Source of the DNA: Myxococcales bacterium
Lineage (GTDB): Bacteria > Myxococcota_A > Polyangia > Haliangiales > Haliangiaceae
Direction: 5' to 3'
Length of the DNA stretch: 64,000 bases
Assembly (NCBI GenBank): GCA_016794525.1
Contig: JAEUJY010000040.1
Span: forward strand, 62,001 to 126,000
The notes under the pieces were generated by a model that did no database searches, was not told the DNA's origin, and worked only from the letters and a program-made list of their open reading frames with translations. Below, piece after piece: positions 3,380 through 28,171 of this stretch; position 1 is the stretch's first letter, and every line of letters starts with the position of its first letter. The position numbers and the translations under genes were made by a program.

Positions 3380-3397
3380 GCTGGTAGGTTGCGCGCC

Positions 3398-6207: not shown

Positions 6208-6279
6208 GTCGCGGCGTCGCGGTGTCAGGGGCTTGCGCGGTGCGTCGACGGAACGGACGTTGCTTGGCGCCGGAGCGTG

Positions 6280-7941: not shown

Positions 7942-7948
7942 ACTGCCT

Positions 7949-7996
7949 GGAGGGTTTGTCGACAAACCCTCCCCCACGGGGTCATGCCCCCGTGGG
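7949..7996 (+). terminator. compound hairpin element 1 after the Kazal/CUB gene
   Basis: A perfect 24-bp palindrome starting GGAGGGTTTGTC and ending GACAAACCCTCC (7949-7972) begins 8 bp after the stop codon. A second hairpin follows at once: CCCACGGGG (7973-7981), a 6-nt loop and CCCCGTGGG (7988-7996), then TCCCCCACCC. There is no U-tract, so classical Rho-independent termination is uncertain; it may stabilise the mRNA end. The same architecture occurs at 46035-46075. Confidence 0.6.
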
Positions 7997-8076
7997 TCCC
8001 CCACCCGATACGCGAGAGCCGACAGCGCAGGGCCCCACGTGTTGCGGTGGTGGGGGGGGTGGTGTACCTGTCGGCG

Positions 8077-9138: not shown

Positions 9139-10521
9139 CTAGCGGCTGAAGGTAGCCGAGGCGCCGCTGGCGCGCGTGAGCGCGGCGGTGACGTCGTCGA
9201 TCAAGAACATCGTGGGTGTGAAGCCAGGGGCCTCGGCGGCGGTGACGTCGAGCGTGATCGTGCCTCCGCTCAACGGGTCGGGGCTGATCGGCGGCAGCCG
9301 GAACGAGGTCGCGCCGTCGAGGACCGTGATCGTCCAGGCAGCCGTGCCGCCGCTCGACAGGTTGGCGAACGCGAGCGACGTGCCCGCGGGTGCGGTGAAC
9401 CCGATCGAGCCGCCACCGCTGGTGATGCCGGTGGGCGCAGGCAGCCACGCCGGCAGGGTCGCGCTGCCGAGGTTGGTGACCGCCGCGAAGCTCGATGAGA
9501 ACGGGGCGGCGGCGGTGGCGCTGGGCGTCGCCAGGCCGACCAGGCGGTAGTTGCCGCCCGGGGCCCCCGACGGCGGCAGGACCTGCGTGGTCGCGTTGCT
9601 GGCGGTCAGGGTCGGCAGCGGCATCGGGATCATGCCGTTCGCGCCGGTGTCGAGCATCGGGATCGCGACCGCGCGGCCGAGACCCGGCGCGGCTGCGGGG
9701 AAGCGGGCGGTGAAGCCGGTGAGGGCCGCCGACACGATGGTCAAGCTCTCGCCGTTGACCTGCTGCCCCGCGCCGAGCGTCATCGGCGAGCCGACGGCGT
9801 AGCCGATCAGATCGTACGTGTCGTCGGCGGTGCTGCTCGTGAGCTGCGAGTCGCCATCGACGATCACCGCCGTGTGGATCTGCGGGCCGGTGCGCGCGGT
9901 GAGCTGCCAGGCGCACGCGCCGCCGCTGCCGTCGTTGATGCACGTGTTCACGGGCGTGCCACCGCTGGTCGCCTGGGTCAGGCGATTCTCGGGGCCACCG
10001 AAGTTGCGGGTGAACGACGTCGTGATCACGGCCAGCGTGTAGTGGCCGAAGCTCGGGGACGGCAGGTTGCCCCAGCCAGCGATCGTGCCGCTGACGTGCG
10101 CCGATGGCGTGACCCGCGGCGCCAGCGGGATCGTGACGTTGCCGCCGGCGACACCGATCCAGGTGGCCGCGGTGCGGCCGCTGGCCGTCGCGGTGATGGT
10201 CTGCGCGCCCGCGATGCCGGCGTCCCGAAACACGGCCAGGCCGTCCGGGTCGGTGGTGGCGTCGAGTTGCAGCGCGCCGCCGGCCCCGCCGAGGTGCACC
10301 GCGGCCCCCGCGATCGGCGTGGCGGTGCCGGGTTCGACGACGTAGACGTTGACCACGCCGTCGATGGGCGCCGACGTGACGCCGCCCCCCGGGATGCGGA
10401 TCGGCGGGAGCACGCCGTCGGAGGCGGGGGCGTCGATCGCGTCATCGCTGCCGCCGCTGGGACCGCAGGCAGGGACCGCGCACAGCGCGAGGAGGAGCGT
10501 GGAGGCGAGGCGAGTGTTCAT
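9139..10521 (-). CDS. lipoprotein with carboxypeptidase-regulatory-like domain, last gene of the synthase operon
   Basis: 460 residues. The N-terminus is a lipoprotein signal (STLLLALCAVPAC). Residues about 55-130 (VNVYVVEPGTATPIAGAAVHL ... AGAQTITATASGRTAATW) look like a carboxypeptidase-regulatory/Ig-like beta-sandwich. The remaining ~330 residues are beta-rich with many Gly, Ser and Thr and no recognised catalytic motif. Its ATG overlaps the stop of the SCP2-like gene (ATGA), so it is probably translated with the biosynthetic genes. An outer-membrane or periplasmic carrier or binding role for the product is conceivable but not shown. It could also be an unrelated surface protein that shares the transcript. 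Confidence 0.72.
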   Translation of the reverse strand: MNTRLASTLLLALCAVPACGPSGGSDDAIDAPASDGVLPPIRIPGGGVTSAPIDGVVNVYVVEPGTATPIAGAAVHLGGAGGALQLDATTDPDGLAVFRDAGIAGAQTITATASGRTAATWIGVAGGNVTIPLAPRVTPSAHVSGTIAGWGNLPSPSFGHYTLAVITTSFTRNFGGPENRLTQATSGGTPVNTCINDGSGGACAWQLTARTGPQIHTAVIVDGDSQLTSSTADDTYDLIGYAVGSPMTLGAGQQVNGESLTIVSAALTGFTARFPAAAPGLGRAVAIPMLDTGANGMIPMPLPTLTASNATTQVLPPSGAPGGNYRLVGLATPSATAAAPFSSSFAAVTNLGSATLPAWLPAPTGITSGGGSIGFTAPAGTSLAFANLSSGGTAAWTITVLDGATSFRLPPISPDPLSGGTITLDVTAAEAPGFTPTMFLIDDVTAALTRASGASATFSR

Positions 10522-10886
10522 GAGCCCTCGTGCTTGAGGTTGCGTCCGACCTTGAGCAGCGTGCCGAGGCTTCCGCGGGCCTTGATCTTGCCGCGCAGGA
10601 GCGCGCCCGGGACGCCGATGCGACCTTCGCGCAGTTTGCGGAACGTGTCGACGGCCATGGCGATGGTGAACGAAGGTGCCGCGTGGGGTCCGCGGGCGAC
10701 CGCGACCTCGCCGTCACCCATCGTGACGTGCCAGGTGCCGCCGCGCTCGCCGCTCAGCTCGATCTGGGCGATCGCGTGGTCGCGCCCGACCTGCGCGCGG
10801 TACGCGGGGTGCGCGGCGAGCTGCTCGGGGATCCACTCCATGAAGAAGCGATCAGGCTCGTCGAGGAACGGGTGCTGGTCAGGCAT
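10518..10886 (-). CDS. SCP2-like sterol/lipid-binding protein
   Basis: 122 residues. The body (about residues 35-105: AIAQIELSGERGGTWHVTMG ... PSFTIAMAVDTFRKLREGRI ... GKIKARGSLGTLLKV) matches the SCP-2 sterol-transfer fold, a small hydrophobic-pocket domain that carries acyl chains or sterols. The ATG at 10886 overlaps the methyltransferase stop as ATGCCTGA, the same 8-bp junction used between the two synthases at 20080-20087; a start 9 codons upstream is also open. In this operon it may shuttle the hydrophobic product or intermediate between soluble and membrane enzymes. That role is inferred from fold and position. Confidence 0.72.
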   Translation of the reverse strand: MPDQHPFLDEPDRFFMEWIPEQLAAHPAYRAQVGRDHAIAQIELSGERGGTWHVTMGDGEVAVARGPHAAPSFTIAMAVDTFRKLREGRIGVPGALLRGKIKARGSLGTLLKVGRNLKHEGS

Positions 10887-12699
10887 CGGCGGCCGCGGCC
10901 GGGGTCGCGCCATCGCGACGGGCCAGCACCCGGTAGGTGTTGGAGCGCTTGCCGCGCTTGATGAACGGCGTGACGACGCGGTCGGCGAGGATGCCGAGGA
11001 TGATCAGCGGCGAGCCGAGCGTCCAGACGACGCCGCGGCGCACCCGCGTCAGCGCCGAGCGCGGCCGCCACGGCTGGATCGGCGGCGGCGCCATCCAGCC
11101 GAGCAGCAGGAACGCCGCGAACAGGAAGTCGACGCGCTGGTGCGCCGACCCGCGGTGCCAGGTGAGCGGCGTGAAGCCAGCCTCGCGCAGCAGCCTGTCG
11201 AGGTTGCCGACCGACAGCAGGTGCTGGTGCTGCGGCTGGAACCACGGCAGCCACAGCGTGCGCAGCAGCTTGCCCAGGCCGAACTCGGGATCGGGCACCT
11301 CGATCATCAGGTGGCCGCCGGCCGGCAGCACGGTCGCGGCGGCGGCGAGCTCGTCGCGCGGTTCGCGGGTGTGCTCGAGGTAGTGGGCCATGCTGACGAC
11401 CTCGTACTGGCCGGCGAGCTCGGGCGCCTTGTCGGGGAACAGCCCGAGGAAGCCGCGCTCGATCCACTTGCGGCGCAGCGCCTCGTCGACCGACGACGAC
11501 AGGTCGAGGCCGTCGAAGCGCGTGCCCGGCAGCTCGTCCTTGGCGCTCAGGCAGAAGTGGCCGTGGCCGCAGCCGACGTCGAGCCAGGTCGCGGGCTGCG
11601 CGACCTCCTTGACCATGCGCGCGCGCGCCAGGTAGCCGGCGCCCGACAGCCCGAAGATGAAGGCGATGCCGGCCTCGCCGAGGCCGTCGTAGAAGTCCTT
11701 GTAGTAGTAGTTGAGCCCCTCGATCGACAGCCGCGGGTTCTGGAAGATGTGGCCGCAGCCACCGCACTTCTCGAGCGTGAACCGGCCTGGCTTGTGCTGG
11801 AGCAGGTCGCGGAACCGCAGGTGCACGCCGAGGTCCTGGCTGGCGCACACCGGGCAGGTCTCGCGGCGCGGCTCGAGCCAGGTGGCGGCGGTCGTGGCCA
11901 GCTCGGCGTAGGTGGCGCGGCGGCTCTCGACGGGATCGGGGCCGGCGGCGGGCTTCCAGGAGCCGAACAGCGTCCGCGCGAACAGGTACAGCTCGACCGG
12001 CGCGCGGAACAGCGTGACCGGGATCAGGTCGCGCGACCGCACCGGCGTGCCGCCGATCGCGAACAGCGGCTGCAGGTGCCACAGCCCCAGCGTCACGCCG
12101 CCGGCGATCGGCTCGAGCCACACCCCGACGGCCATGATCGCGAAGAACAGCGGCTGCAGGATCAGCGCGACCGACGTCGACGGGCCGAGCAGCGCGCGCA
12201 GGATGGCGCGCCGGCGCGACAGGTCGTCCTTGCCGGCGCGGGCCGACGGCGCGACCGCGAGATCGGTGGTCGCCGTCGCGTACTGCTTGAGCCGCGCGGC
12301 CAGGCGCAAGAACTGGATCTCGTCGACGGGCGCCTCGGCGCGGGCGCGCTCGGCGACCTCGGCGGTGCACACCAGCGCGTGGCCGGCGGTGCGGCCGACC
12401 GCGAGGCGGTCCTTGCGGTAGGTCGCGGGATCGACCAGCTGCGAGATGCTGAGCGCGGCGATGGTCGGCAGATCGGCGGGGATGAGGTCGACCACCTCGA
12501 GGCCGTGGGCGGTGGCGTGGGCGCTGGCGGCGCGGCGGGTGGCGTCGTCGAGCGTGACGCCGGGCGCGGTGAAGAACCGGTGCTCGGTGGCGACCGGCGC
12601 GTCGGACGGCGCCATCGTGGTGAGCGCGGCCAGGCGCGCGCGCATGCGCAGGGCCGAGAGCGCGAACAGCGCGGCGAGCGGGACCAGGACCCAGATCAT
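10879..12699 (-). CDS. membrane-associated SAM-dependent methyltransferase with zinc ribbon
   Basis: 606 residues. A membrane helix opens the protein (MIWVLVPLAALFALSA), and further hydrophobic stretches lie near residues 165-215 and in the last 100 residues. A four-Cys zinc ribbon (CPVC ... CGGCG) sits at about 281-315. The class I methyltransferase core follows, with motif I WLDVGCGHGHFCLSA at about 370 and downstream GGHLMIEVPDPEFGLGKLL, as in the methyltransferase type 11/23 families. The first 160 residues are not recognised. The acceptor is unknown; membrane helices on both sides of the catalytic domain favour a lipid or membrane-bound intermediate. The ATG overlaps the stop of the glycosyltransferase gene (ATGA). 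Confidence 0.82.
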   Translation of the reverse strand: MIWVLVPLAALFALSALRMRARLAALTTMAPSDAPVATEHRFFTAPGVTLDDATRRAASAHATAHGLEVVDLIPADLPTIAALSISQLVDPATYRKDRLAVGRTAGHALVCTAEVAERARAEAPVDEIQFLRLAARLKQYATATTDLAVAPSARAGKDDLSRRRAILRALLGPSTSVALILQPLFFAIMAVGVWLEPIAGGVTLGLWHLQPLFAIGGTPVRSRDLIPVTLFRAPVELYLFARTLFGSWKPAAGPDPVESRRATYAELATTAATWLEPRRETCPVCASQDLGVHLRFRDLLQHKPGRFTLEKCGGCGHIFQNPRLSIEGLNYYYKDFYDGLGEAGIAFIFGLSGAGYLARARMVKEVAQPATWLDVGCGHGHFCLSAKDELPGTRFDGLDLSSSVDEALRRKWIERGFLGLFPDKAPELAGQYEVVSMAHYLEHTREPRDELAAAATVLPAGGHLMIEVPDPEFGLGKLLRTLWLPWFQPQHQHLLSVGNLDRLLREAGFTPLTWHRGSAHQRVDFLFAAFLLLGWMAPPPIQPWRPRSALTRVRRGVVWTLGSPLIILGILADRVVTPFIKRGKRSNTYRVLARRDGATPAAAADA

Positions 12700-13859
12700 G
12701 GGAGCAACTCCTCGAGCGCGGTGGCGGCGGCGGCGGCGCCACCGGCGGCGGTGAACGACGCCTGCACCGCGGCGGCGGCGGTGCGGAAGCTGGGCTCGTC
12801 GAGCACGCGGCGGACCGCGGCGGCGAGCTCGGGCGGCTGGACCCGGCCGAACTTGATCCGCAGGCCGGCGCCGGCGGCGACGACCTGATCGGCGACGATC
12901 GGCTGGTCGTCCTTGATCGGCGCGATCACCAGCGGCAGGCCGCGGGCCAGCGCCTCGCACACGGTGTTGTGGCCGCCGTGACAGACCACCGCGTCGACCT
13001 CGCGCAGCAGCGCGAGCTGCGGCACGTAGCGCTGGCAGATCACGTTGGGCGGCAGCGGGCCGACGACCTCGGGCGGGGCGACCAGCACGACCTGCACGGG
13101 TTGCTCCGCCAGCGCGGCGATCGCGGTGGCGTAGAAGCGCGTCGAGACGTCGACGTTGACCGTGCCCATCGTGACCAGCACGCGCGGCCGCGGGCCGAGG
13201 CGCTCCCACGGGAACGTCGCGGTCTCCGGCCGATCGGCGATCGACGGGCCGACGAAGCGGTAGTGCGCGGGGAAGCGATCGGCGGGCCCGACGAGCGCGC
13301 TGGTGGTGAACGCGATCACCCGGTGCGGCGACAGCTCGCCGCCGTCGCCGGTCGGCGGCAGGCCGGCCTCGCGCTCGAGGTCGGCGAACAGATCGGCCAG
13401 CCAGCGCTTGACCTGGGGCAGGCCGGCGAGCGGATCGGTGACGCCGGCCGAGGTGGTGGCGGTCGAGGCCCACGCCAGGCCACGGGCGCGCGCGACCAGC
13501 CCGCCGGCGACGGCCTGCTGATCGACGACCAGCAGATCGGGGCGCCAGGCGGCGACCGCGGCGTCGAGCGCGGGCCGCATCGACCGCGCCAGCGGGATCA
13601 GGAAGTCTTCCCACAGGAACTTCAGCGCCGCGGCGCCGCGGGTGGTGCGGGCCTTGTCGGCGATCGCCGCGGCGTGTTCGGCGTCGACGTGCTCGGGCAT
13701 CGGCACGAGCTCGGCCTCGGCCGGCAGCAGCGGGCGGACGGTGCCGGGGTGCGCGGCCCAGGCGACCTGGTGGCCGCGGGCGGCGAGCGCGCGGCCCACC
13801 GACACGGTCGGGTTGACGTGGCCGGTGAGCGGCGGGACGACGAACAGGATCCGCGCCAT
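12696..13859 (-). CDS. GT1 (MGT/UGT-type) glycosyltransferase
   Basis: 387 residues, usual for macrolide/sterol-type GT1 enzymes. The N-terminal acceptor domain starts MARILFVVPPLTGHVNPTVS, with the catalytic-type His in the GHVNP loop. The C-terminal nucleotide-sugar domain has the family signature VICQRYVPQLALLREVDAVV, then CHGGHNTVCEALARGLPLV and APIKDDQPIVADQV. It should transfer a sugar from an NDP-sugar to a hydroxyl of a small hydrophobic acceptor. Lying inside the synthase operon, it makes the product likely a glycolipid or glycosylated polyketide. The start overlaps the upstream hydrolase stop by one base (TGATG). Confidence 0.9.
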   Translation of the reverse strand: MARILFVVPPLTGHVNPTVSVGRALAARGHQVAWAAHPGTVRPLLPAEAELVPMPEHVDAEHAAAIADKARTTRGAAALKFLWEDFLIPLARSMRPALDAAVAAWRPDLLVVDQQAVAGGLVARARGLAWASTATTSAGVTDPLAGLPQVKRWLADLFADLEREAGLPPTGDGGELSPHRVIAFTTSALVGPADRFPAHYRFVGPSIADRPETATFPWERLGPRPRVLVTMGTVNVDVSTRFYATAIAALAEQPVQVVLVAPPEVVGPLPPNVICQRYVPQLALLREVDAVVCHGGHNTVCEALARGLPLVIAPIKDDQPIVADQVVAAGAGLRIKFGRVQPPELAAAVRRVLDEPSFRTAAAAVQASFTAAGGAAAAATALEELLP

Positions 13860-14632
13860 CACCGCGCCTCCAGCCACGCGACGACGCGATCGCGCACCAG
13901 CGCGGTGGCCTCCCACAGGATCGAGTGGGTGCAACCGGCGACGACCTCGAGCGTGGCGGCGGGCAGCGCGGCGGCCAGCGCGGCGCCGCGGTCGCGGACG
14001 TCGGAGTGCTCGCCGTAGAGCAAGAGCGCCGGCGCGGCGATCGTCGCGAGCCGCGCGAGGTCGAGCGGCGGCGACGCCTCGAGGTCGGCCACCAGCGTGG
14101 TGCCCTCGACGAGCGCCCGCGCGTGGTCGGCCAGGCGCGTGCGCTTGCGCTCGCTGTGGCGGCCGAGCCAGGCCTGGAACGACGCCGCGATCTTCTCGTC
14201 GCGGGCCTGGCCCTGCAGCCCGAGCGTGGCGGCCATCTGCGCGGCCCAGCCGGCGGTGCCGTCGTGGGCGTCGATCAGCACCAGCGACGCGACCCGCGCG
14301 GGGTGCGCGTGCGCGAACGCCAGCGCGATCAGGCCGCCGAAGCTGTTGCCGATCACGTCGACCGGCGCGTCCGGCGACTCGGCGTCGACCAGCGCGGCGA
14401 GATCGGCGACGAAGTCGGCGACGGCGTAGCCGCCGGCGGGGCGCTCGGACAGGCCGTGGCCGCGCAGGTCGAAGAGTCGCACCGCGCGGTGGGCGGCGGC
14501 CGGCGTCGCCAGCGTGAAGTAGAACGACGACAGGTTGTCCATCACCAGGCCATGGACGAACACCGCGACCCGCGCGCCGGCGCCGAGGCGCTGCACGTGC
14601 AGGCGCACCCCGTTGACGGTGAGGTCAGCCAT
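13859..14632 (-). CDS. alpha/beta-hydrolase A
   Basis: 257 residues with the complete alpha/beta-hydrolase layout: oxyanion strand VAVFVHGLVMDN, DLRGHGLSERP, nucleophile elbow VIGNSFGGLIALAFA (Ser), acid in LLLYGEHSDVRD and His in VAGCTHSILWE. It is clearly related to the next gene upstream (both share the FDLRGHGLS/YDLRGHGLS segment and overall length), which points to a tandem duplication. Candidate roles are thioesterase-like release of the chain from an ACP, lactone or ester hydrolysis, or editing. The ATG overlaps the stop of hydrolase B by 8 bp. Confidence 0.88.
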   Translation of the reverse strand: MADLTVNGVRLHVQRLGAGARVAVFVHGLVMDNLSSFYFTLATPAAAHRAVRLFDLRGHGLSERPAGGYAVADFVADLAALVDAESPDAPVDVIGNSFGGLIALAFAHAHPARVASLVLIDAHDGTAGWAAQMAATLGLQGQARDEKIAASFQAWLGRHSERKRTRLADHARALVEGTTLVADLEASPPLDLARLATIAAPALLLYGEHSDVRDRGAALAAALPAATLEVVAGCTHSILWEATALVRDRVVAWLEAR

Positions 14633-15389
14633 CGCCGTGCTCCGCGAGGTGCGCTACCAGGAGCGCGGTCAGCGCGTCCTTGGCGTCGAGGTGCAGGTAG
14701 TGGCCGCCGGGCAGGATCGCCAGCCGCGCGTCGGGCAGCTGCGCCGCGAGCCGCTCGCCGGCCGGGCGGCACGACGAACGATCGCCGTAGACGCACAAGG
14801 TCGGGGCGGTGACCGCGGCCAGCGCGGCGGCGTCGAGGTCGGGCTCGGCGCGCAGGTCGGCGAGCAGCGTGGTCTCGTACGCGAGCGCGCGCAGCGTCGC
14901 GAGCAGCCGCGCGGCCTGGCGGCGACCGCCGGCGATCGCCTCGCGCAGCCCTGGCGGCAGCGCCGCGATCATGTGATCGGGGCCGGCGGTCAGGAAGCCG
15001 TGCTCGTCGGCGAACGTCGCCGGCGGCAGCGGCGCCTCGACCAGCACCAGCCGCCGCACCCGCGCCGGGTGGGCGCGCGCGAACGCCAGCGCGACCAGCG
15101 CGCCGTAGCTGTGCCCGACGAGGTCGACGCGGTCGGGCAGGTCGCCGATCAGCGCGGCGAGATCGGCGGCCATCGTCGCGGTGTCGTAGCCGTCGGCCGG
15201 GCGATCGCTCAGGCCGTGGCCGCGCAGGTCGTAGAGCCGGACGGCGTGGGTGCGGGCCAGCGCCGGCGCGGCGGTGAAGTACCAGGACGCGAGGCTGCCG
15301 ATCAGCAGGCCGTGCAGCATCACGACCGGCGGGCCGGCGCCCAGCTCGGTGGTGTGCAGGCGCACGCCGTTGGCTTCGAGGAAGGACAT
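14625..15389 (-). CDS. alpha/beta-hydrolase B
   Basis: 254 residues. Motifs: VVMLHGLLIGSLASWYF, LYDLRGHGLSDRPADGYDT, nucleophile elbow LVGHSYGALVALAFARAHPA, acid near LCVYGDRSS and His in LPGGHYLHLDAKD. All three catalytic positions appear present. It is a paralogue of hydrolase A, so two related release or tailoring activities are encoded side by side. It starts 28 bp after the free ACP gene, the only junction in the operon without overlap, and no clear ribosome site is visible there. Thioesterase, esterase and C-C hydrolase functions cannot be told apart from sequence. Confidence 0.88.
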   Translation of the reverse strand: MSFLEANGVRLHTTELGAGPPVVMLHGLLIGSLASWYFTAAPALARTHAVRLYDLRGHGLSDRPADGYDTATMAADLAALIGDLPDRVDLVGHSYGALVALAFARAHPARVRRLVLVEAPLPPATFADEHGFLTAGPDHMIAALPPGLREAIAGGRRQAARLLATLRALAYETTLLADLRAEPDLDAAALAAVTAPTLCVYGDRSSCRPAGERLAAQLPDARLAILPGGHYLHLDAKDALTALLVAHLAEHGDG

Positions 15390-15417
15390 GGTCGAGGAGC
15401 GCGGCGGCGGTCGGTCG

Positions 15418-15702
15418 TCAGGTGCGCGCGGCGATGAAGGTGACCAGATCGCCGACGGTCAGCGCGATGATCTCGTCGAGCTGCTTGGTCGAGATCCACC
15501 CCACGAAGTCGACCTGGGCGCCGTAGTGGGCCTGGAGCTTCTCGGCCAGCGCGACGAACTCGATGCTCTCGAGCTCGAGGTCGGCGTTGAACGAGGTGGC
15601 GAGGGTGAGCGGGCCGGCGAGGGTGATCTCGTCGCCGGCGACCTCGATCACGAGGCGCTCGACGGTGGCGAGGATGGCGGCGGTGGCGGGGTCGAGGGTC
15701 AT
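15418..15702 (-). CDS. free-standing acyl carrier protein
   Basis: 94 residues, small and acidic, with the 4-helix ACP pattern. The phosphopantetheine attachment site is read at Ser46 in FNADLELESIEFVALAEKL, where Glu45 replaces the usual Asp before Ser. It differs from the ACP inside the large synthase (ADLSIDSIKRIEI), so the pathway has two distinct carriers. Its position between the synthases and the hydrolases suggests that it loads starter or extender units or receives the finished chain. The upstream synthase carries its own phosphopantetheinyl transferase, which could activate both carriers. The ATG overlaps the synthase stop (ATGA). Confidence 0.85.
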   Translation of the reverse strand: MTLDPATAAILATVERLVIEVAGDEITLAGPLTLATSFNADLELESIEFVALAEKLQAHYGAQVDFVGWISTKQLDEIIALTVGDLVTFIAART

Positions 15703-18700
15703 GCGGGCTCCAGCCAGGTCCAGGCGACGATATGCGCGTCGTCGTCGGCGCGGGTGGTGACGACGACGCCATCGATCGTGAGGCGATCGCCGTCGACGGC
15801 GGTGCAGGTGAGCTTGCGCGGGTCGGTGAGGCCGGTGCCGCGGGCCTTGGCCACGGCCTCCTTGGCGGCCCACAGCCGGGTCAGCCACGCGTCGCGATCG
15901 CCGCGCGGCTGCGCCCGCTCCCCGAGCGCCAGCTCGTCGGCGGTGAACGCGACGTCGACGAACGACGCCGGCCGCGCGGCGATGGTCTCGAGGTCGATGC
16001 CGGGCGCGGTGCCGGCGGCGCCGACCAGCGCGACGGCGCGGTCGTCCTTGTGCGCGATCGACACGGCGAGCGCCTGGCCGCCGGGCGCGATCGCGCGAGG
16101 CCGGCCGTCGGGATCGCTGGCGACCTCGATCTCGACCGGGTACAGCGGGCCGGCGCCGCGCTGCCACAGGTAGCTGCGCACCGCGTCCTTGGCGGCGATC
16201 CGGCCGAGCAGCCAGGCGCGGCGGGCCCGCGGGTTGACGGCGTCGTGGGCGGCGCGCTCGCGGACGCCGAGGTAGCGGCGCATCACCAGCTCGCGCGACG
16301 CGACGGTGCGCCAGTGCTCGCGCACCAGCGCGTAGCCGTCGGGGCGCGGCTCGGTCAGCGCGTTGAGCTCGGGGTATTGCAGCACCCGCCACAGCGGCTC
16401 GTCGGAGTCGAACCGGCGATCTTCCCAGCCGTCGATCTGGCACCACACCCGGCCGCCGATCGTGAGCTCGTGATCGGCGATCGCCGACACCGCGGTCAGC
16501 TCGCGGAAGCGCACCGCGCACGCGACCTTGGTGCCAGGCGGCGGATCGTCGCCGTACAGCGCGACCCGGGTCAGCCGGATCGGCATCGCCAGGCGGTCGA
16601 TCGTCTCGCGCTGCATGACCCACCAGCCCATCAGCTGGCCCGAGCAGTCGAGCAGCGCGCCGGGCGCCGACAGCGCGGTCAGCTCGCCGTCGACGCCGTC
16701 GTCGCCCATCGGCCCCATCGCGGTGACGCCGGCGTAGCCGGGGCCGTGGAACATCCAGCGATCGACGTAGAGCTGATCGGCGGTGACCGGCGTGGTCCGC
16801 GGCGCGGCCAGCGGCCGGGTGCGCACCGGCGGCGCTGGCGGGTAGGCCGCGGCGACGCGGACGGTGGCGCGGGCGTAGCCGACGAGGTCGACGGCGATGG
16901 CGTCGTCGGCGATCCGCTCGCAGCGCAGCTCGACCTCGACCGCCGGCGCGACCGCGAGCCAGCGCAGCGCGGCGACGTCCTCGAGCGCGATCGCGACCCG
17001 GTCGGGCGCGAGCGTCAGCGCGGCGTCGCGCATCATCGCCAGCATCATCGTCATCGGCGCGACCGGGAAGCGATCGCTGACCTCGGGCCAGCCCAGCGGC
17101 TGCCGGTAGAAGCAGTGATCGATCAGCGCCGGCTCGACGTCGACCGACATGGTGCGGCGGAGGCTGTGGCGGCGCGGCGGGGCGGCGGTCGAGGCGGTGG
17201 GGGCCGCGACGGTGCGCGGCGCGGCAGGCGCGGTCGTCGACGCATGGGTGGGCGCGTGACTCGCGGGCGTGCGGTGCGGGGGCGCCACCGCCGCCGGCGG
17301 CGCGGCCGGCGCCTGCGCCCACGCGGCGGCGATCGCCCGCACGCTGGCCTCGGCCTCGCGCAGCACGTCGGCCAGCGTGGTCGCGACCGGCGACGGCGGC
17401 AGCGCGACCAGCCCGAGATCGATCGCGGCCCGCGGCAAGACCGGCGCGGCCTTGCCCAGCCGGACCAGCGGCGTGCCGAGCGCGAGCGGCTTGCCGGCGC
17501 GCGCGGGCGGCGGCGCGGCGGTCGTGGTCGCGGTCGCCGCGGCGCCGGTGCGCTCCCAGCCCTCGACCCACAGCGCGGCGCGGACGCGGGCCAGCTGCTT
17601 CTGCTGCGCGGCGGCGTCGCCCTTGTCGGCGCTGGCGGCGATCGCGAGGTGATCCTGGCCGCGCAGCGTGTCACCGACGAAGCCGGCGACGCTGCCGACG
17701 CCGAGCTGGACGAAGCCGCGCACGCCATCGGCGTACAGCGCCGCGGTCAGCTCGCGGAACCGGACCGGCCGCACGAGGTGATCGATCGCCAGCGCGCGCA
17801 CGCGGTCGGGCTCCGCCGGGTACGGCGCGCACGAGGTCGCCGACCACATCGGCACCCGCGGCGGGCCCAGCGGCAGCGCGGCGAGGTGCGCGCGGTGCGG
17901 GCCGAGGTAGTCGGCGAACAGCGGCGAGTGGAAGCCGGAGCGGAACGGCAGCTCCTGGCACAGCACGCCCTTGTCGGCGAGCCGCGCGATCGCCGCGCGC
18001 ACGGCGTCGACCTTGCCGCACACGATCGCCTGGTGCGGGCAGTTGTCGTGCGACACGGCGACGTCGGCGAGCCCGCTCAGCGCGGCCTCGGCGCCGGCGG
18101 CGCTGCAGCCGACGGCGGCGAACACCACGTCGGGGACCTCGAGCGAGCCCGGGCGCAGCCCGCCGACGAACGTCGCCGCGGCGGCCGGCGGCACCAGCTC
18201 GCTGACGACCATGCCGGTCCACTCGCCGAGGCTGTGGCCGGCGTAGACGTCGGGCGCGTGACCGGCGGCGCGCAGCGCGTCGTCGAGGAGCCGGCCCAGC
18301 GCGAACACCGCGAGGCCCTGGTGCTCGAGGTCGCGGGCGGCGACGGCCGGATCGGCCAGCGCCGCCGGCATGGCGACGCCGAGGCTGGCCACCACCGCGC
18401 TGACGTCGGGCGGCGGCGTGACCTCGATGCCGGGGAACACGAACGCCAGCCGCCCGCCGGCGGCGCCCAGGCCGCGCGGCGTGAACCACAGATCGTTGCG
18501 GCCGCGCCACGGCTGGCCGCGATCGAGCACCTTCCTGGCCAGCGCGCGGCGCTCGGGCGTGGGATCGAACAGCGCGAGCCGCGCCGGCCCGTCGCCGCCG
18601 GTGGCGCCGCTGTCGAGGGCGGCGGCGAGCGCGGCGGTCGAGGCGGCCGCGAGCACGAGCGGCGTCGGCGCGTCGGGCGCGGTGGTCGAGCGCGGGCGGC

Positions 18701-20087: not shown

Positions 20088-23000
20088 GATCGACCGCGCG
20101 AGGCGCCAGCGCGCGCGGATCGCCACCGACGATCACCACCTCGGTGTCGCGCGCGTCCGAGCCGAGCTCGGCGAGCAGCCGCGCGACGCCGGCGGCCGGG
20201 TCGATCAGGCCGAGGCCGCGCCGCGCGTACTCGCGCTCGAGCTCGGGCGAGACCATGCCGGTGCCGGCCCACGGGCCCCAGTCGATCGCGACGACGCGGC
20301 CGGTGATGCGCGGCGCCAGCGCGGCGGCGAGCGCGGCCAGCGCCTGGTTGGCGGTGGCGTAGTCGACCTGGCCGCGGTTGCCGAGCGCGCCGGAGATGCT
20401 GGCGAAGAACACGACGAAGCGGGTGTCGGGGCGCAGCCGCTCGGCCAAGGTCAGCGCGCCGGCGACCTTGGTGGCGTAGACCCGCGCGAACGAGTCGGCG
20501 GTCTTGTGGCGGATCAGCTTGTCCTCGAGGACGCCGGCGCCGTGGATCACGCCGTCGAGGCGGCCGTGGCGCGCGTAGACGTCGTCGATCACCGCCGCGA
20601 ACGCCGGCGTGCGGACGTCGCAGGCGTGGTAGCGGACGGTCGCGCCGGCGGCGGTGATCGCGGCCAGCGTCGTGCGGATCTCGCGATCGGCCAGCGTGCG
20701 GGCGCAGCGCGCCTCGACCGCGGCCGGCTCGCTGGCCAGGCCGGCGGCGAGGATCGCCTTGCGCAGCGCCGGCGCGTCGGCGGCGGCGATCAGCGCCGGG
20801 TGCTCGGGCGGCGGCAGCGGCGAGCGGCCGACCAGCTCGATCTGGCAGCGCCAGCGGCGGGCCAGCTCGACCGCGACCCGCGCGGTGATGCCGCGGGCGC
20901 CGCCGGTGATCAGCACGACCGCGTCGGGGCCGAGCGCGAGATCGCCGCCGGCGCCGACCTGCGCCGGCACCAGCGTGCGGGTCGAGCGCTCGCCGCCGGC
21001 GTGGCCGACCTCGAGCAGATCGTCGTCGGCGCACAGCTCGGCGTGGATGACCTCGGCCAGGCGCTCGGGCGCCTCGCGCGGATCGAGATCGAGGCGGCGC
21101 GCGCGCACCGCCGGCCACTCGGCGGCCACGGTCTTGATCAGCCCGCCGGCGCCGTCGCCGCGCAGGCCGCTGGCCACCGGCGCCTCGCCGAAGCGCCCGC
21201 CGAGGCCGGTCGCGACCAGCAGGCTCGACGCGCCGCCGACGACCGCGTGCTTGACGTGATCGAACATCGCCGTCATCGCGGCGGTGGCGCCGTCGCCATC
21301 CTGGGCGGTGGTGGCCAGGCCGGTCAGATCGATCAGCCCGTGGACGTCGGGGCGCGCGATGCGATCGCTGGCCGCGACCACCTGCACGTCGGCGCCACCG
21401 GCGGCGAGCCGGGTCGCGAGGTGCGGGGCCACGCCGAGGCCGTCGTCGACGACGACCAGCGTGCGGCCGGCGATCGCGGCGTCGCGCGGGCTCGGGGTCG
21501 GCACGGTGATCCGCGAGAAGACGAAGCGGCCGAGCTCGAGCGGCGCGGGCGCGGGCGCCGCGGTGGGCACGGCGACCGGCACGGTGTCGCCCGCGGCGAT
21601 CTCGGCGACCACCGCGCCCGGGCTGGGCGCGCCCAGCTTGGCCGCCAGCCAGTCGACCAGGCCGCGCAGCGTCTTGCGGGTGGCCAGCTCCTCGACCATC
21701 GCGTCGTTGCCGCCGCCGGCCACCTTGAGGCCGAGGCGGCTGGCCAGCTCGCCGACGATCTCGATGCGCTTGATCGAGTCGATCGACAGGTCGGCCTCGA
21801 GATCGAGATCGGGGCCCAGCGTCTCGGGCGGGTAGCCGGTGCGCTCGCTGACGATCGCCAGCACCAGCGCCATCGGATCGAGCGCGGCCGGCTCGGGCGG
21901 CACGTCGATGACGACCGGCGGCGGCGGCGCGTCGACGGGGTGGGTCGGCAGCGTCGGCCGCGCCATCCGCGCGCGGGCGGCGGGGCGTTCGTCGGCGGGG
22001 CGCTCGTCGGCCAGCGCCGGCGCGCTGCCGAGGTACGCGAGCATGACGTCGCGCTGCGAGGTGATCGCGGTGCGGACGTTGTGCAGGTACTCGAGGACGA
22101 GGGCGTCGCGATCGCTGGCCAACGGGGACTCCTGGAACGAGCGGGGGCCGTCGTCGTCGTGCGGGATCGAGAAGCGCGCGGCGGGCGCGGCGGTCGGCGC
22201 CAGCGCCAGGGCGACCGGCTGCGCCGGCGGCGGCGGCGGCGCGTCGGCGGGCCGCGCGGTGTGGCCGTCGATCAGCCAGCCGGCGCTGGGGCCCTTGCGC
22301 TTCTTGCCGTCGAGGTCGAGCACCGCGGCGTCGCGATCGGCGAACAGCGGCGCCAGGTCGACGTCGACGCCGTGGGTGGCCAGGGTCGCGATCGCGCGCA
22401 GCAGCGAGCGCAGGCTCGAGCCCGAGCCGGGATCGCAGGCCACCGCGACGTGCGGGCGATCGCCCAGCACCTCGGCGACCAGCCGGGTCAGCACCTGGCC
22501 GGGGCCGGCCTCGACGAAGATCCGCGCGCCGGCGGCGTACATCGCCTCGACCTGCGCGGCGAACCGCACCGGCCGCGCCACCTGCGCGGCCAGGGTCGCG
22601 CGCACGCCGTCGGGCGTCGCCGGGTACGGCGCGGCGGTGACGTTCGACCACACCGGGATCCGCGGCGCGCGCACGTCGAGCGTGGCCATCCGCGCCGCCA
22701 GCGCGGCCTCGGCGCCGGCGACGATCGGGCTGTGGAACGCGGCGGCCACCGGGATGCGGCGGGTGGTGAGGCCGGCGGCGGTCAGCGCCGGCGCGACCCG
22801 CTCGATCGCCGCGACGCTGCCGGCCAGCACGCACTGCCGCGGGCCGTTGTCGTTGGCGATGATCACGTCGGGGTGATCCGCCAGCAGCGGCTGCACCGCG
22901 GCGGCGCTGGCGGCGACGGCGAGCATCGTGCCGGGATCGCCGCCGGCGGCGGCCAGGATCGCCTCGCCGCGCAGCTGCGACAGCGGCAGCAGGTCGTCGA

Positions 23001-26000
23001 CGGTGATCGCCCCGGCGGCGGCCAGCGCCGCCAGCTCGCCGTAGCTGTGACCGCCGGCCATCGCCGGCACCACGCCGAGCGCGCCGAGCAGCTCGACCAC
23101 CGCGAGGTCGGCGACGCCGAGCGCCGGCTGCGCGACCCGGGTGTCGGTCAGCGCGGCGGCCTGGGCGGCGCGCTCGGCCTCGGTGAACGCGGCCGGCGGC
23201 AGCATCGTCGCGGCCCACGGCGCGCCGCGGACCAGGAGGTCGCGGAGCCGCGGGAACGCGAGGAACAGCTCGGCGAGCATGCCGGGCCGCTGGCTGCCCT
23301 GGCCCGGGCACAAGAGCGCGATCGGGCCGCGCACGTCGCCGGCCGCGAACACGCCGCGGCGATCGGGCGTCGGCGCGTCGAGCTTGGCCCGCAGGTCGGC
23401 GAGGTCGTCGGCGACGATCGCCAGCTGCACCGGGCCGTGGCCGTGGGCGGCGACGGTGCGCGCCAGATCGCGCAGGCGCGGCGGCGGGCTGGCGGCCAGG
23501 CGCGCGCGCACCGCCGCGAGCAGCGGCTCGATCGCGGCGCGATCGGCGCCGCGGAACACCAGCAGCTCGGCCGGCCACGCGGGCAGGCCGGAGCTGGCGC
23601 GATCGTGGGCCGCGAGCACCGCGTGGAAGTTGGTGCCGCCGAAGCCGAACGCGCTGACCGCGGCGACCCGGCGCGCCGCGGTCCACGGCCGGGCCGCGTC
23701 GAGGAAGCGGAACGGGCTGGTCGCGGGATCCCAGGCGGGGTTGGGCTTCTTGACGTGCAGGGTCGGCGGCAGCACGCCGTGATAGAGCGCGAGCGCGCAC
23801 TTGATCAGCCCGGCCATGCCGGCGGCGCACTTGGTGTGGCCGATCTGCGACTTCACCGAGCCGAGCACGCAGGCGCCGGGCGCCGCGCCGGCGCGGCCGA
23901 ACACGTCGGTCAGCGTCGCCAGCTCGGTGCGATCGCCGACGACGGTGCCGGTGCCGTGGGCCTCGACCAGCCCGACCTCGGCCGGCGACACGCCGGCCTG
24001 GCGGTAGGCGCGCTCGACGGCGCGGATCTGGCCCTCCTTGCGCGGCGCGGTGAGGCCCAGGCTCTTGCCGTCGGAGGCGCCGGCGACGCCCTTGATCACG
24101 GCGTAGATGCGATCGCCGTCGCGCTCGGCGTCGGCGACGCGCTTGAGCACGACCGCGGCGACGCCCTCACCGAGGACGATGCCGTCGGCGTCGGCGTCGA
24201 AGGTGTGGCAACGGCCGGTGGTCGACAGCGCGTGGACGCTGGCGAACAGGAGGTAGTCGTTGATGCTGTTGTGCAGGTCGGCGCCGCCGCACACGACGAC
24301 GTCGCTGCCGCCGGTGACCAGCTCCTTGACCGCGAGATCGACCGCCGCCAGCGACGAGGCGCAGGCGGCGTCGACGGTGTAGTTGGCGCCACCGAGATCG
24401 AGGCGGTTGGCGATGCGGCCGGCGATCACGTTGGCCAGCACGCCGGGGAACGAGTCCTCGGTGAGCGTCGGCAGCGCGCGATCGAGTTCGGGCGGCAGCT
24501 CGCCGACGTAGTGCGGGAACATCGCGCGGAAGCCGTAGGCGCTCGACAGATCGGTGCCGGCCTCGGCGCCGAAGATCACCGCGGTGCGCTCGCGATCGAG
24601 CGGCCGGCCGCCGGTCGAGACCGCGCTGGCGTAGCCGGCGTCGTCGATCGCGCGCCGCGCGACCTCGAGGCTGAGCAGCTGCACCGGCTCGATCGCCTCG
24701 AGCGAGCGCGGCGGGATGCCGTAGGCCAGCGGATCGAACGGCACCGGCGCGAGGAAGCCGCCCCACTTGCACGGGGTCTTCTTGCCGGCGCCGGCGCCGG
24801 TGGCGGCGGGATCGTAGAACTGCGCGACGCTCCACCGCGACGCCGGCACCTCGCCGACGCTGTCCTTGCCGCCGACGATGTTGGCCCAGAAGCCGTCGGT
24901 GTCGCCGGCGCCGGGGAAGATCGCCGCGACGCCGACGATCGCGACGTCGACCGGCGTGGCGTTGCCGCGCGGGCGCACCGGGCGCGGCGCGTCGGTGGCC
25001 AGCGCCTCGGCCCGGGCGGCGAGCAGCGCCTGGCCGTCGCCGCTCACCTGGTGGTGCAGCTCGGCGATCGAGCAGGTCGACGCGCGCAAGGCCGCGACCT
25101 GGCCGATCATGAACATGCCGTCGGCGGCCTGGGTGGCGGCGTCGACGGCGACGATCGCGTCGCCCTCGCGGCGCAGCCCCTTGGCGGCGATGCGCAGCCG
25201 GCCGAGGTTGAGCTGCTCGAGCGCGGCCCACCGCTCCTGCGGCGTCGCGCCGGTGGCGGCCAGCCGGGCCTTCTCGGCGGCGAACGCCGCGGTGAACGCG
25301 GTGTCGGCGCAGCGGGTGGCGTGGCCGGGCGCGGTCTCGAGCAGGCTGGTGGCCTCGCAGGCGATCGCGGCCTGCTGGAAGCCGGGCTGGATCGCGCCCG
25401 ACGCCACCGCCTCGTGAGTGAACAGGTAGGCGGTGCCCATCAGCACGCCGACCTTGGCGCCGCGGGCGGCGAGCGGCGCGGCCAGCGCCGCGACCATCGC
25501 GCACGACCGCGCGTCGTGGATGCCGCCGGCGAACAGCACCGACACCTCGGCCACCGCCGGGTGCGCCAGCAGCCGCTCGAGCTGCGCCTCCCACAGCGCG
25601 AAGCTCGAGCGCGGGCCGACGTGGCCGCCGCACTCGCGGCCCTCGAAGACGAACCGGCGCGCGCCGTCCTTCAGGAACAGGTCGAGCAGGCCCGGCGACG
25701 GCACGTGCAGGTAGGTCGCGATGCCGGCGGCCTCGAGCGGCGCCGCCTGCGACGGGCGGCCGCCGGCGATCAGCGCCACCGGCGGCTTGATGTCGTGCAG
25801 GACCGCGAGCTGCTCCTCGCGCAGCTCGGCCGGCACGAAGCCGAGGATGCCGACGCCCCACGGCCGATCGCCCAGCCGCGCCGCGGTCTCGGCGACCAGC
25901 GCGCGGACCTCGGCGCCCGACGACAACGACAGCGCCAGGAACGGCAGCCCGCCGGCGGCGGCCACCGCCTCGGCGAACGCGGCGCGATCGCTGACCCGCG

Positions 26001-26922
26001 ACATAGGCCCCTGCGCGATCGGGTAGCGCAGCCCGTGGGCGGCGGCCAGCGGCGCGCCCGGCGCCAGCGGCGCCAGCGCGGCGGCCTGCTCGACGTAGCC
26101 GATCATCGCGGCGCGCACGCCGCGCACCGCGGCGCCGACGGTGGCGAACCGCTCGGCGAACCCGCGGGCCAGCGCCGCGTCCTGGCCGATCGGCAGGAGA
26201 TCGTCGACGAGCGAGTCGCCGCCGAGCCGGGCCCGCACCGCCGCCGCGTCGAGGTCGCCCAGGCCCGCGACCGGCAGGTCGGGGCGCGTATAGATACGGT
26301 GGCCGGCGATCAGCGTGGTCTCGCTGCCGTCCATCGCGGCGATCGCGGCGCGCACCGGCGGCGGCAGCGACGACTCGCGGCACAGCGCGAGCTGGCTGTC
26401 GAGCACGACGCCGGCCGCGCCGCCGGCGACGCAGGCCGCGGCGGCGTGCAGGCCGATCCCGCCCTGGCCCCACACCGGCACGGTGAGCGCCGCGACCAGC
26501 TGCTGCACCAGCACGAACGTCGTCGCGTCGCCGACGCGCCCGCCGGCCTCGCCGCCCTTGGCGATCACGCCGGCGGCGCCGGCCGCGACCGCCGCGCGGG
26601 CCTCGGCGAGGCTGGTGACCTGGGCCAGCACCGGTCGGTCGGCGAACCGCGCGACGGCGGCGACGTCGGCCACGATCACCGCGCTGACCCACGCGGGCAG
26701 GTCGGTGGCGGCGACCGCGCAGCTGTCCGGGATCCGGACCGCGCCGCGATCGACCTGGTGGCCGAGCGCGGCCAGCGCGTGGCGCGCCCGGTCGGGATCG
26801 CGGCCGAGGTCGAGCACGCCGAGCGCGCCGGCGGCACACGCCGCGGCGACCAGCCCGACGTCCGGGCGTTCGCACGGTGACAGGACCAGGATCGGCGGGG
26901 GCGGGTGATGGTCGCGGATCAT
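20080..26922 (-). CDS. PfaD-PfaD-KS-AT-ACP-KR synthase (iterative PKS, PUFA/hglE-like)
   Basis: 2280 residues. Residues 1-640 hold two tandem nitronate-monooxygenase/PfaD-type FMN domains. The first has IAKGGEAGGRVG and VPVWGQGGIG; the second has LRYPIAQGPMSRVSD, FEGRECGGHVGPRSS and VSVLFAGGIHDARS. In PUFA synthases this family is the trans-acting enoyl reductase. KS, about 657-1100: Cys854 in YTVDAACASSLAAVD, EAHGTGTVVGD and KSQIGHTKCAAG. AT, about 1195-1490: LLCPGQGSQ and Ser1293 in GGHSYGEL. One ACP around Ser1716 with the PUFA-type motif LSIDSIKRIEI. KR, about 1800-2270: VLITGGARGITARVA and Tyr2188 in VDYATANQAL. The ATG was preferred over an upstream TTG; GGAG lies 6 bp before it. It is the first gene of the operon and, with the next gene, supplies all steps for a reduced chain. 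Confidence 0.93.
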   Translation of the reverse strand: MIRDHHPPPPILVLSPCERPDVGLVAAACAAGALGVLDLGRDPDRARHALAALGHQVDRGAVRIPDSCAVAATDLPAWVSAVIVADVAAVARFADRPVLAQVTSLAEARAAVAAGAAGVIAKGGEAGGRVGDATTFVLVQQLVAALTVPVWGQGGIGLHAAAACVAGGAAGVVLDSQLALCRESSLPPPVRAAIAAMDGSETTLIAGHRIYTRPDLPVAGLGDLDAAAVRARLGGDSLVDDLLPIGQDAALARGFAERFATVGAAVRGVRAAMIGYVEQAAALAPLAPGAPLAAAHGLRYPIAQGPMSRVSDRAAFAEAVAAAGGLPFLALSLSSGAEVRALVAETAARLGDRPWGVGILGFVPAELREEQLAVLHDIKPPVALIAGGRPSQAAPLEAAGIATYLHVPSPGLLDLFLKDGARRFVFEGRECGGHVGPRSSFALWEAQLERLLAHPAVAEVSVLFAGGIHDARSCAMVAALAAPLAARGAKVGVLMGTAYLFTHEAVASGAIQPGFQQAAIACEATSLLETAPGHATRCADTAFTAAFAAEKARLAATGATPQERWAALEQLNLGRLRIAAKGLRREGDAIVAVDAATQAADGMFMIGQVAALRASTCSIAELHHQVSGDGQALLAARAEALATDAPRPVRPRGNATPVDVAIVGVAAIFPGAGDTDGFWANIVGGKDSVGEVPASRWSVAQFYDPAATGAGAGKKTPCKWGGFLAPVPFDPLAYGIPPRSLEAIEPVQLLSLEVARRAIDDAGYASAVSTGGRPLDRERTAVIFGAEAGTDLSSAYGFRAMFPHYVGELPPELDRALPTLTEDSFPGVLANVIAGRIANRLDLGGANYTVDAACASSLAAVDLAVKELVTGGSDVVVCGGADLHNSINDYLLFASVHALSTTGRCHTFDADADGIVLGEGVAAVVLKRVADAERDGDRIYAVIKGVAGASDGKSLGLTAPRKEGQIRAVERAYRQAGVSPAEVGLVEAHGTGTVVGDRTELATLTDVFGRAGAAPGACVLGSVKSQIGHTKCAAGMAGLIKCALALYHGVLPPTLHVKKPNPAWDPATSPFRFLDAARPWTAARRVAAVSAFGFGGTNFHAVLAAHDRASSGLPAWPAELLVFRGADRAAIEPLLAAVRARLAASPPPRLRDLARTVAAHGHGPVQLAIVADDLADLRAKLDAPTPDRRGVFAAGDVRGPIALLCPGQGSQRPGMLAELFLAFPRLRDLLVRGAPWAATMLPPAAFTEAERAAQAAALTDTRVAQPALGVADLAVVELLGALGVVPAMAGGHSYGELAALAAAGAITVDDLLPLSQLRGEAILAAAGGDPGTMLAVAASAAAVQPLLADHPDVIIANDNGPRQCVLAGSVAAIERVAPALTAAGLTTRRIPVAAAFHSPIVAGAEAALAARMATLDVRAPRIPVWSNVTAAPYPATPDGVRATLAAQVARPVRFAAQVEAMYAAGARIFVEAGPGQVLTRLVAEVLGDRPHVAVACDPGSGSSLRSLLRAIATLATHGVDVDLAPLFADRDAAVLDLDGKKRKGPSAGWLIDGHTARPADAPPPPPAQPVALALAPTAAPAARFSIPHDDDGPRSFQESPLASDRDALVLEYLHNVRTAITSQRDVMLAYLGSAPALADERPADERPAARARMARPTLPTHPVDAPPPPVVIDVPPEPAALDPMALVLAIVSERTGYPPETLGPDLDLEADLSIDSIKRIEIVGELASRLGLKVAGGGNDAMVEELATRKTLRGLVDWLAAKLGAPSPGAVVAEIAAGDTVPVAVPTAAPAPAPLELGRFVFSRITVPTPSPRDAAIAGRTLVVVDDGLGVAPHLATRLAAGGADVQVVAASDRIARPDVHGLIDLTGLATTAQDGDGATAAMTAMFDHVKHAVVGGASSLLVATGLGGRFGEAPVASGLRGDGAGGLIKTVAAEWPAVRARRLDLDPREAPERLAEVIHAELCADDDLLEVGHAGGERSTRTLVPAQVGAGGDLALGPDAVVLITGGARGITARVAVELARRWRCQIELVGRSPLPPPEHPALIAAADAPALRKAILAAGLASEPAAVEARCARTLADREIRTTLAAITAAGATVRYHACDVRTPAFAAVIDDVYARHGRLDGVIHGAGVLEDKLIRHKTADSFARVYATKVAGALTLAERLRPDTRFVVFFASISGALGNRGQVDYATANQALAALAAALAPRITGRVVAIDWGPWAGTGMVSPELEREYARRGLGLIDPAAGVARLLAELGSDARDTEVVIVGGDPRALAPRAVDHA

Positions 26923-27325
26923 CGACAACTCCGGGACGCGCAGACGCTACAGCACGGGCCGGGTCGCGGTCGACGACTTCCCGGCGACAACGTCGCGGGC
27001 CCGCGCTGACATGGGCCGTCCGGTCGCGAATCCCGCACGTCACCGACGCCTGTTCGGACTTGATCAGCCTCGGGCCCCCGCGCGCGGCGCCGCCAGCCAC
27101 GTCGGTGCCGGGCCCACACCCTGTGGCCTGCTTTCTCACACTTACCTCGGGGCCGCGTGGGCGCGCCCACCGGCGCTGCATCGTCACGGCGGCGGCGCAC
27201 CCGCCGCGACGACGACGCAAGGGCTGCGCGACCCGCGCGGGGCCCGCGCGGGGGCGGCGCCCACCGCGATGGATCGGCCGCGCGAACGATCGACTTGTCG
27301 TCGCGCACGACCTAACGTCCGCGCG
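26923..27325. promoter_or_regulatory. divergent intergenic region of the synthase operon
   Basis: 403 bp separate the minus-strand synthase operon from the plus-strand methyltransferase gene, long for this compact DNA. It must carry both promoters. It contains a locally less G+C-rich stretch around 27118-27150 (CCTGCTTTCTCACACTTACC) and a hairpin-forming CGCGCGGGGCCCGCGCG near 27236-27252. I could not assign convincing -35/-10 boxes on either strand, nor an open frame that looks like a gene. Confidence 0.45.
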
Positions 27326-28171
27326 ATGGCGAGCACCGCCGTGACCCGGCGCGGCGACCTCAGCGTCACCGCGTACTACACCGCCCATACGTGGCGCTGG
27401 GGCAAGCTCGCCGGCGCCGAGCTGTTCACCGGCCGCAAGAGCCGCGACGTCTTCAACGCCACCAACCTCGCGCTCGGCGTGGCGCGGCTGTTCCGGCGCG
27501 ATCTGCCGTCGCTGCGCCACGGGCTGGTGCAGCGCCACGTGATGATCGATCGGCTGGCCGCCGCCAGCGGATGCGCGCAGGTGCTCGAGCTGGCCGCGGG
27601 GCTGTCCCGGCGCGGCGTGACGATGTCGGCCGATCCCGCGCTGCGCTACGTCGAGGTCGACCTGCCGGCGATGATCGCCCACAAGCAGCGGCTGCTGAGC
27701 AAGAGCGCGCGCGGCCGGGAGATCGCCGCGCGACCCAACCTGGTGCTGCACGCCGGCGACGCGACGACGCTGGGGCTCGACGAGGTGCTGGCGCCCGGGC
27801 CGGTGTGCGTGATCGCCGAGGGCCTGCTGGTGTACCTCGACGCGTCGGCGCAGCAGGCGCTGTGGCGGCGGGTGGCGGCGCTGTGCGCGGCGCGGCCGGG
27901 CAGCGCGCTGGTGTTCGACCTGGTGCCGTTCGTCGAGCAGCCGCGTCCGGGCCGGGTCGGCCGCGGCTTCGAGCGGCTGTTCAAGCGCGCGACCAAGGGC
28001 GCGACGATGGCGTTCGACGGCCGCACCCGCGACGACATCGCCGCCGAGCTGCGCGCCGCGGGCTTCACCACCGTCGAGCGGATCGCGCCCGCCGACGCGC
28101 CGCCGGCGTGGGCGGTGCCGCACCTGGCCCGCCGGACCCAGCAGCTGGTGTGGCGCGCGGCGGTGGCCTGA
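27326..28171 (+). CDS. LCM/Ppm1-family SAM-dependent O-methyltransferase
   Basis: 281 residues with the leucine-carboxyl-methyltransferase (PCMT/TCMP) pattern: N-terminal RQRHVMID-like helix, VLELAAGLSRRGVTMS as motif I, YVEVDLPAMIAHKQRLL as motif II and VCVIAEGLLVYLD as the post-III segment. The family methylates carboxyls or hydroxyls, often on polyketides in actinobacteria. It is transcribed divergently from the synthase operon, so it may methylate the same product under shared control; that link is positional only. The ATG in GCGCGATGGC was chosen because the family similarity begins soon after it; longer open frame exists upstream without similarity. Confidence 0.85.
   Translation: MASTAVTRRGDLSVTAYYTAHTWRWGKLAGAELFTGRKSRDVFNATNLALGVARLFRRDLPSLRHGLVQRHVMIDRLAAASGCAQVLELAAGLSRRGVTMSADPALRYVEVDLPAMIAHKQRLLSKSARGREIAARPNLVLHAGDATTLGLDEVLAPGPVCVIAEGLLVYLDASAQQALWRRVAALCAARPGSALVFDLVPFVEQPRPGRVGRGFERLFKRATKGATMAFDGRTRDDIAAELRAAGFTTVERIAPADAPPAWAVPHLARRTQQLVWRAAVA

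Follow-up and report, generated by a model that had tools for sequence, protein, structure and literature searches.

What is made by the nine genes that lie on the minus strand at positions 9139-26922 of a 64,000-nucleotide stretch of a Myxococcales bacterium genome (assembly GCA_016794525.1, contig JAEUJY010000040.1; this whole stretch is hereafter the window)? They encode, in this order, two large synthases (A and B), a free acyl carrier protein (ACP), hydrolase 2, hydrolase 1, a GT1 glycosyltransferase, a membrane methyltransferase, an SCP2-like protein and a lipoprotein. A sequence-only reading of the window had listed these same components and proposed an undescribed pathway to a glycolipid or a glycosylated polyketide; all the components, including the synthase domains, are present. 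We consider it reasonably probable that the operon makes a glycosylated long-chain lipid on an iterative type I fatty-acid/polyketide synthase resembling Type M. The cluster is not an isolated novelty, as its core recurs in the same order in distant bacteria; it belongs to an orphan family that is widespread.

Neighbouring genes overlap by 4 or 8 bases, the sole exception being a gap of 28 bp between the ACP and hydrolase 2 genes, and it is therefore likely that the nine genes form one translationally coupled operon. Frame-specific GC content at third codon positions agrees with the called frames. According to Pfam and NCBIfam matches and motifs, the operon encodes complete domains for initiation, extension, reduction, phosphopantetheinylation, transfer, glycosylation and methylation (Table 1). 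Both ketosynthases (KS) keep the catalytic Cys (VDAACASS) and two His each, both acyltransferases (AT) keep GHSxG and FHS, and the motifs of the ketoreductase (KR), dehydratase (DH) and phosphopantetheinyl transferase (PPTase) as well as both ACP serines are intact; the catalytic motifs of the operon enzymes are also intact in nearly all of 24 compared relatives. Sequence searches of the PDB returned general families only.

Table 1. Features of the locus, with positions in the window (ER, enoyl reductase; loci of relatives are labelled L)
Feature	Position	Strand	Basis and remarks
LCM-family methyltransferase	27326..28171	+	Pfam/NCBIfam; divergent from operon; linked also in L058, L076
Synthase A, barrel1-barrel2(ER)-KS-AT-ACP-KR, 2280 amino acids	20080..26922	-	Pfam/NCBIfam, motifs, KS tree
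Barrel 1 of A, complete eight-stranded TIM barrel lacking the catalytic His (GGR)	26314..26907	-	AlphaFold2 model; motif in relatives
Barrel 2 of A, FabK-like flavin ER, catalytic His in FEGRECGGHVGP	25009..26067	-	NMO match; FabK fold; invariant His
KS of A, catalytic Cys kept	23752..24948	-	Domain match, motif, KS tree
AT of A with malonyl-binding Arg	22462..23313	-	Domain match, alignment
ACP of A, LEADLSIDSIKR	21718..21867	-	Domain match, motif
KR of A	20266..20922	-	Domain match, motif
Synthase B, KS-AT-DH-PPTase, 1462 amino acids	15699..20087	-	Domain matches, motifs
AT of B, catalytic Ser/His retained, malonyl-binding Arg missing family-wide	17700..18338	-	Domain match, motif, alignment
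Free ACP, 94 amino acids	15418..15702	-	Profile match, motif
Alpha/beta hydrolase 2, Ser in GHSYGA, His	14625..15389	-	Domain match, motif
Alpha/beta hydrolase 1, Ser in GNSFGG, His	13859..14632	-	Domain match, motif; copy in nearly all relatives
GT1 glycosyltransferase, macrolide-GT-like, donor motif HGGHNTVCEALARGLPLVIAPIKDDQ	12696..13862	-	Pfam/NCBIfam, motif
Membrane-anchored class I methyltransferase with zinc ribbon	10879..12699	-	Profile matches; fold nearest sugar C-methyltransferases MtmC/KijD1/TcaB9
SCP2 lipid-carrier-like protein	10518..10886	-	Domain match; adjoins methyltransferase in L059 too
Predicted lipoprotein	9139..10521	-	Linked to operon in L058 as well, 54% identity

Relatives were searched with short probes rather than whole synthases, and a genome scan gave 52 loci on which all window genes were mapped, together with further relatives and a Streptomyces linear plasmid. 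The order A-B-ACP-hydrolase-GT1, with the methyltransferase as a variable last member, was found in Frankia, Protofrankia, Streptomyces, Actinomadura, Actinoallomurus, Lentzea, Amycolatopsis and one Myxococcales metagenome-assembled genome (MAG), and the same core order is present in several relatives from the window's own phylum. Chance assembly of unrelated genes was considered and excluded, because this order is kept at about 40-75% protein identity in several phyla. In a quick KS tree of 112 rows (SH-aLRT support without bootstrap; some long branches were flagged, none of them the window's), the KS domains of A from these loci group in a single clade (36 rows, SH-aLRT 99) and those of B a separate one (26 rows, SH-aLRT 100). 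Subclades inside the two broadly match, which indicates that A and B have travelled together. The A-KS clade takes in the window, all Frankia loci found, Streptomyces, Lentzea and Actinomadura, while loci of Nevskia, Panacagrimonas and Bosea, which have no GT1 match, and the ars locus of Beijerinckia fall outside it.

Of the loci in the A-KS clade, 29 continue for 10 kb or more past the A-KS; 24 of these encode GT1 and 19 the methyltransferase. Nearly all Frankia loci of this clade that are long enough to judge carry glycosylation genes, the exception being L051. The sequence-only reading had not recognised the combination with GT1 and a membrane methyltransferase as a characterised pathway; no characterised product was found for it in the literature searched, yet the combination is the conserved norm of this synthase family. 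The same counts bear on the idea that the synthase supplies a non-glycosylated very-long-chain fatty acid or alcohol to another pathway, as ArsA does for type III polyketide synthases (PKSs), with GT1 in a secondary or detoxifying role. Synthase A does share its domain order with the ArsA homologue of Beijerinckia and the GT1 match is absent in some relatives, but the GT1 gene lies mid-operon, in translational coupling with its neighbours, and is conserved at the frequency given above, and no type III PKS of the ArsB/ArsC kind was found among the operon genes by Pfam and NCBIfam, while such genes are present in the Beijerinckia locus (L086). We regard this alternative as improbable.

Horizontal transfer of the cluster is likely. 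Its occurrence is patchy: none of six same-genus genomes and 15 of 284 genomes in the phylum possess it at the chosen cut-off. Streptomyces sp. NBC_01243 carries the entire core cluster (L087, 14521-31044) on a linear plasmid of 868 kb, where the methyltransferase gene is soon followed by an IS3 transposase, and public records, among them that of a Streptomyces plasmid, annotate the individual genes of the ACP, hydrolase, GT1 and methyltransferase set. Both barrel-2 matches in Frankia sp. QA3 are copies of the window synthase family, and the genome of Frankia CpI1 contains the cluster (L015). A GHMP/galactokinase-like gene lies near the cluster in three Actinomadura-group loci; no other gene recurring across lineages was detected beside the core. 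As a sugar-linked neighbour it speaks, like the lipid-linked PapA-like acyltransferase of L006, for the glycosylated-lipid reading.

The first 638 residues of synthase A form two TIM barrels in the AlphaFold2 model (pLDDT 93.7). Barrel 2 carries ECGGH, which is invariant in 32 sequences, while in barrel 1 the His is replaced (GGR, GGV, GGA and similar) in every relative compared. Of the tandem PfaD-type ER proposed from the sequence, the two barrels are thus real, but only one has the catalytic His, and on the modelled fold this one is nearer FabK (Z 37, 24-26% identity) than PfaD (Z 28-32, 13% identity). It is likely that A possesses one catalytic and one structural barrel. In the thraustochytrid PUFA (polyunsaturated fatty acid) synthase a heterodimer of two ER barrels is formed and the His is retained in both (PMC13311796).

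The malonyl-binding Arg is present in all ATs of A that were aligned, whereas its column is empty of Arg in all aligned ATs of B. The known protein nearest to B in this respect is PfaB, a long-chain acyltransferase acting at the end of PUFA synthesis, in which the malonyl Arg is lost (PMC12895367). The shared loss suggests, by analogy, that the KS-AT of B may hand over a finished long chain. In some PfaB proteins KS also precedes AT, but B differs in keeping the KS Cys, in having GHS in the AT where PfaB has GYS, and in being fused to DH and PPTase. The putative acceptor, the free ACP, scores slightly below the Pfam cut-off (19.4 against 20.8 bits), and its DLELESIEF site is conserved across the syntenic loci.

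These architectures also bear on whether the operon is a true hgl (heterocyst-type glycolipid) or pfa (PUFA) pathway. The best NCBIfam model for the synthases is of the PfaA type and the KS of A falls within the pfa-like superfamily, but both PfaA-model scores (872.6 and 452.2 bits) are below the cut-off of 1010.1 bits. In place of the tandem ACP array of PUFA synthases of Types A and B there is a single ACP in A in addition to the free one. A PfaC-like arrangement of KS and chain length factor with two dehydratase/isomerase domains was not found either, for B has one DH and a KS with catalytic Cys, followed by AT and no second KS-like unit. The conserved gene set of hgl islands includes the glycosyltransferase gene hglT and hgdACB; a Pfam scan of window genes detected no ABC transporter. 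Either pathway is in our opinion very improbable.

As for the decoration of the chain, GT1 has UDPGT and EryCIII-like C-terminal Pfam matches above cut-off and the C-terminal nucleotide-sugar motif of GT-B enzymes. It matches the MGT subfamily model with an E value of 1.8e-54, yet with 185 bits against a cut-off of 260. The methyltransferase is membrane-bound according to predicted hydrophobic segments. It shares the zinc ribbon and the S-adenosylmethionine-binding core with TcaB9, KijD1 and MtmC (Z 20-22, 16-18% identity), but only the first 270 of their approximately 405 residues were matched and the window enzyme adds an N-terminal membrane domain. Linkage of the LCM enzyme was seen in L058 and L076, that of the lipoprotein in L058 and that of SCP2 in L059; SCP2 and the lipoprotein were encountered only in the window version and its nearest relatives. 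Because linkage is limited to these loci, the three extras are probably parts of the window's version of the cluster.

A glycolipid or glycosylated-polyketide pathway remains the best reading, and in a glycolipid pathway these parts could work as follows. Synthase A would load malonyl units, as is proposed from the retained Arg of its AT, and then elongate the chain, and beta-keto groups would be reduced wholly or partly by the KR of A, the DH of B and the FabK-like barrel 2, with barrel 1 as its structural partner. The PfaB-like KS-AT of B would take the finished long chain to the free ACP, one or both hydrolases would release it or form an ester, and GT1 would add a hexose to a hydroxyl or carboxyl group. 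Sugar or chain may be methylated by the membrane methyltransferase together with the LCM enzyme, and transport of the glycolipid towards the outer envelope would fall to SCP2 and the lipoprotein. The most likely product would be a glycosylated very-long-chain fatty acid, with an expected length of approximately C20-C30, which may be hydroxylated and may be cyclised. A more tentative proposal is that all these bacteria (Frankia, other actinomycetes and myxobacteria-like bacteria) share a single undescribed class of such lipids, in which the second KS-AT delivers the chain to a dedicated ACP for glycosylation.

Several observations weigh against this pathway. Macrolides or small molecules are the usual substrates in the subfamily to which this GT1 enzyme belongs, and the acceptor may therefore not be a lipid. 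The synthase relatives L034, L051, L080, L081 and L082 have no GT1 match, some ATs of B have an Arg one column off from the malonyl Arg, and the linkages of SCP2 and of the lipoprotein are each based on a single relative. Frankia vesicle envelopes are attributed to hopanoids (PMC5745019), hence no known Frankia lipid demands the cluster. An entry in PMC4365757 lists Frankia CpI1 as producer of an undetermined glycolipid.

The relationship of GT1 to macrolide and aglycone glycosyltransferases, its nearest ones, is what a glycosylated polyketide would lead one to expect, that is, a macrolide-like secreted metabolite whose partly reduced, hydroxylated chain is closed by a hydrolase to a ring or dimer and then decorated by GT1. 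The hydrolases resemble esterase and thioesterase folds, including the PKS-derived chain 3qit. Models for such a compound would be fattiviracin, cycloviracin and glucolypsin; macrocyclic dilactones with C19-C28 chains and glucose come from Streptomyces, Nocardia and Kibdelosporangium (PMC4365757), kin of the bacteria that hold the cluster. The resemblance is one of chemistry that lies within reach of such genes, and a connection to the operon is hypothetical. The full reducing set, SCP2 and the lipoprotein suit an envelope lipid equally, and no published gene cluster for the three compounds, nor any genes for fattiviracin-type glucolipids, were found in the literature searched. To our knowledge no genes for fattiviracin, cycloviracin or glucolypsin are known. 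We hold a glycosylated polyketide to be possible but rather unlikely, and prefer the glycosylated long-chain lipid.

Some loci depart from the core arrangement. A second, divergent copy in Frankia sp. QA3 (L084, 441-17310) has GT1 and hydrolase and adjoins an ABC exporter and an SDR. In a SZUA-336 MAG (L006, 9935-23573), A, ACP, hydrolase, GT1 and methyltransferase occur without B and are followed by an SDR and a PapA/condensation-like acyltransferase; L034 carries another A copy of this MAG. L080 (G119:C261, 12509-17828) keeps the synthase pair and the ACP; these are followed by a hydrolase and then, in place of GT1, by a pair of nitrogenase-component-1-like proteins and a radical SAM enzyme. 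L081 and L082 contain A-type synthases of the A-KS clade with no B, ACP or GT1 match nearby, and two divergent RND (AcrB-type) pump genes adjoin the cluster in the Myxococcales MAG (L007, 2396-9874).

In the flanks of the cluster, the gene at 3389-4927 on the left is 77-87% identical in six same-genus genomes. No clean empty site was found: none of the four regions read has a neighbouring window gene next to this left flank gene, and in the genomes compared the secretin to the right of the cluster is on other contigs. That secretin (33013-35301) has three N domains, and no other type II secretion genes were detected among the neighbours scanned. A protein with a Kazal-type inhibitor domain directly adjoins a trypsin-like protease (6106-8988). 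A Ser/Thr kinase with an AAA domain (28268-31948) is placed just past the LCM methyltransferase on the same strand, and is not beside the cluster in L058 and L059.

Among known systems, the window synthase would most probably belong to the Type M secondary-lipid synthases, as judged from the match of organisms and the KS clade. These Pfa-like synthases were listed from Frankia, Actinosynnema, Renibacterium and Streptomyces avermitilis with products uncharacterised (Shulse & Allen 2011, PMC3098273). The difference is that the main text of that paper names no ACP, hydrolase, GT1 or methyltransferase for Type M, and the word glycosyltransferase is absent from it. The claim that the pathway is undescribed is thus half right: the synthase has most probably been published and the gene set is annotated in public records, while no paper found in our literature searches assigns a product to the cluster. 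Conservation of the operon turns an orphan synthase, listed without a product, into a testable glycolipid prediction, which, if true, would mean an envelope or secreted lipid common to nitrogen-fixing symbionts, antibiotic producers and probably myxobacteria.

The other close comparison is with the ars system (ArsA/ArsD, Type P). In A. vinelandii, ArsA supplies type III PKSs with chains of C23-C25 (PMC4824345), and the chains of ars phenolic lipids are given as C22-C26 (PMC13291983). Synthase A has the order barrel1-barrel2-KS-AT-ACP-KR of the Beijerinckia ArsA homologue, and the C-terminal DH-PPTase half of B resembles the separate ArsD homologue at that locus. However, the ars system includes two type III PKSs but lacks a second KS-AT, whereas the window adds a KS-AT in B, a free ACP, hydrolases, GT1 and methyltransferases.

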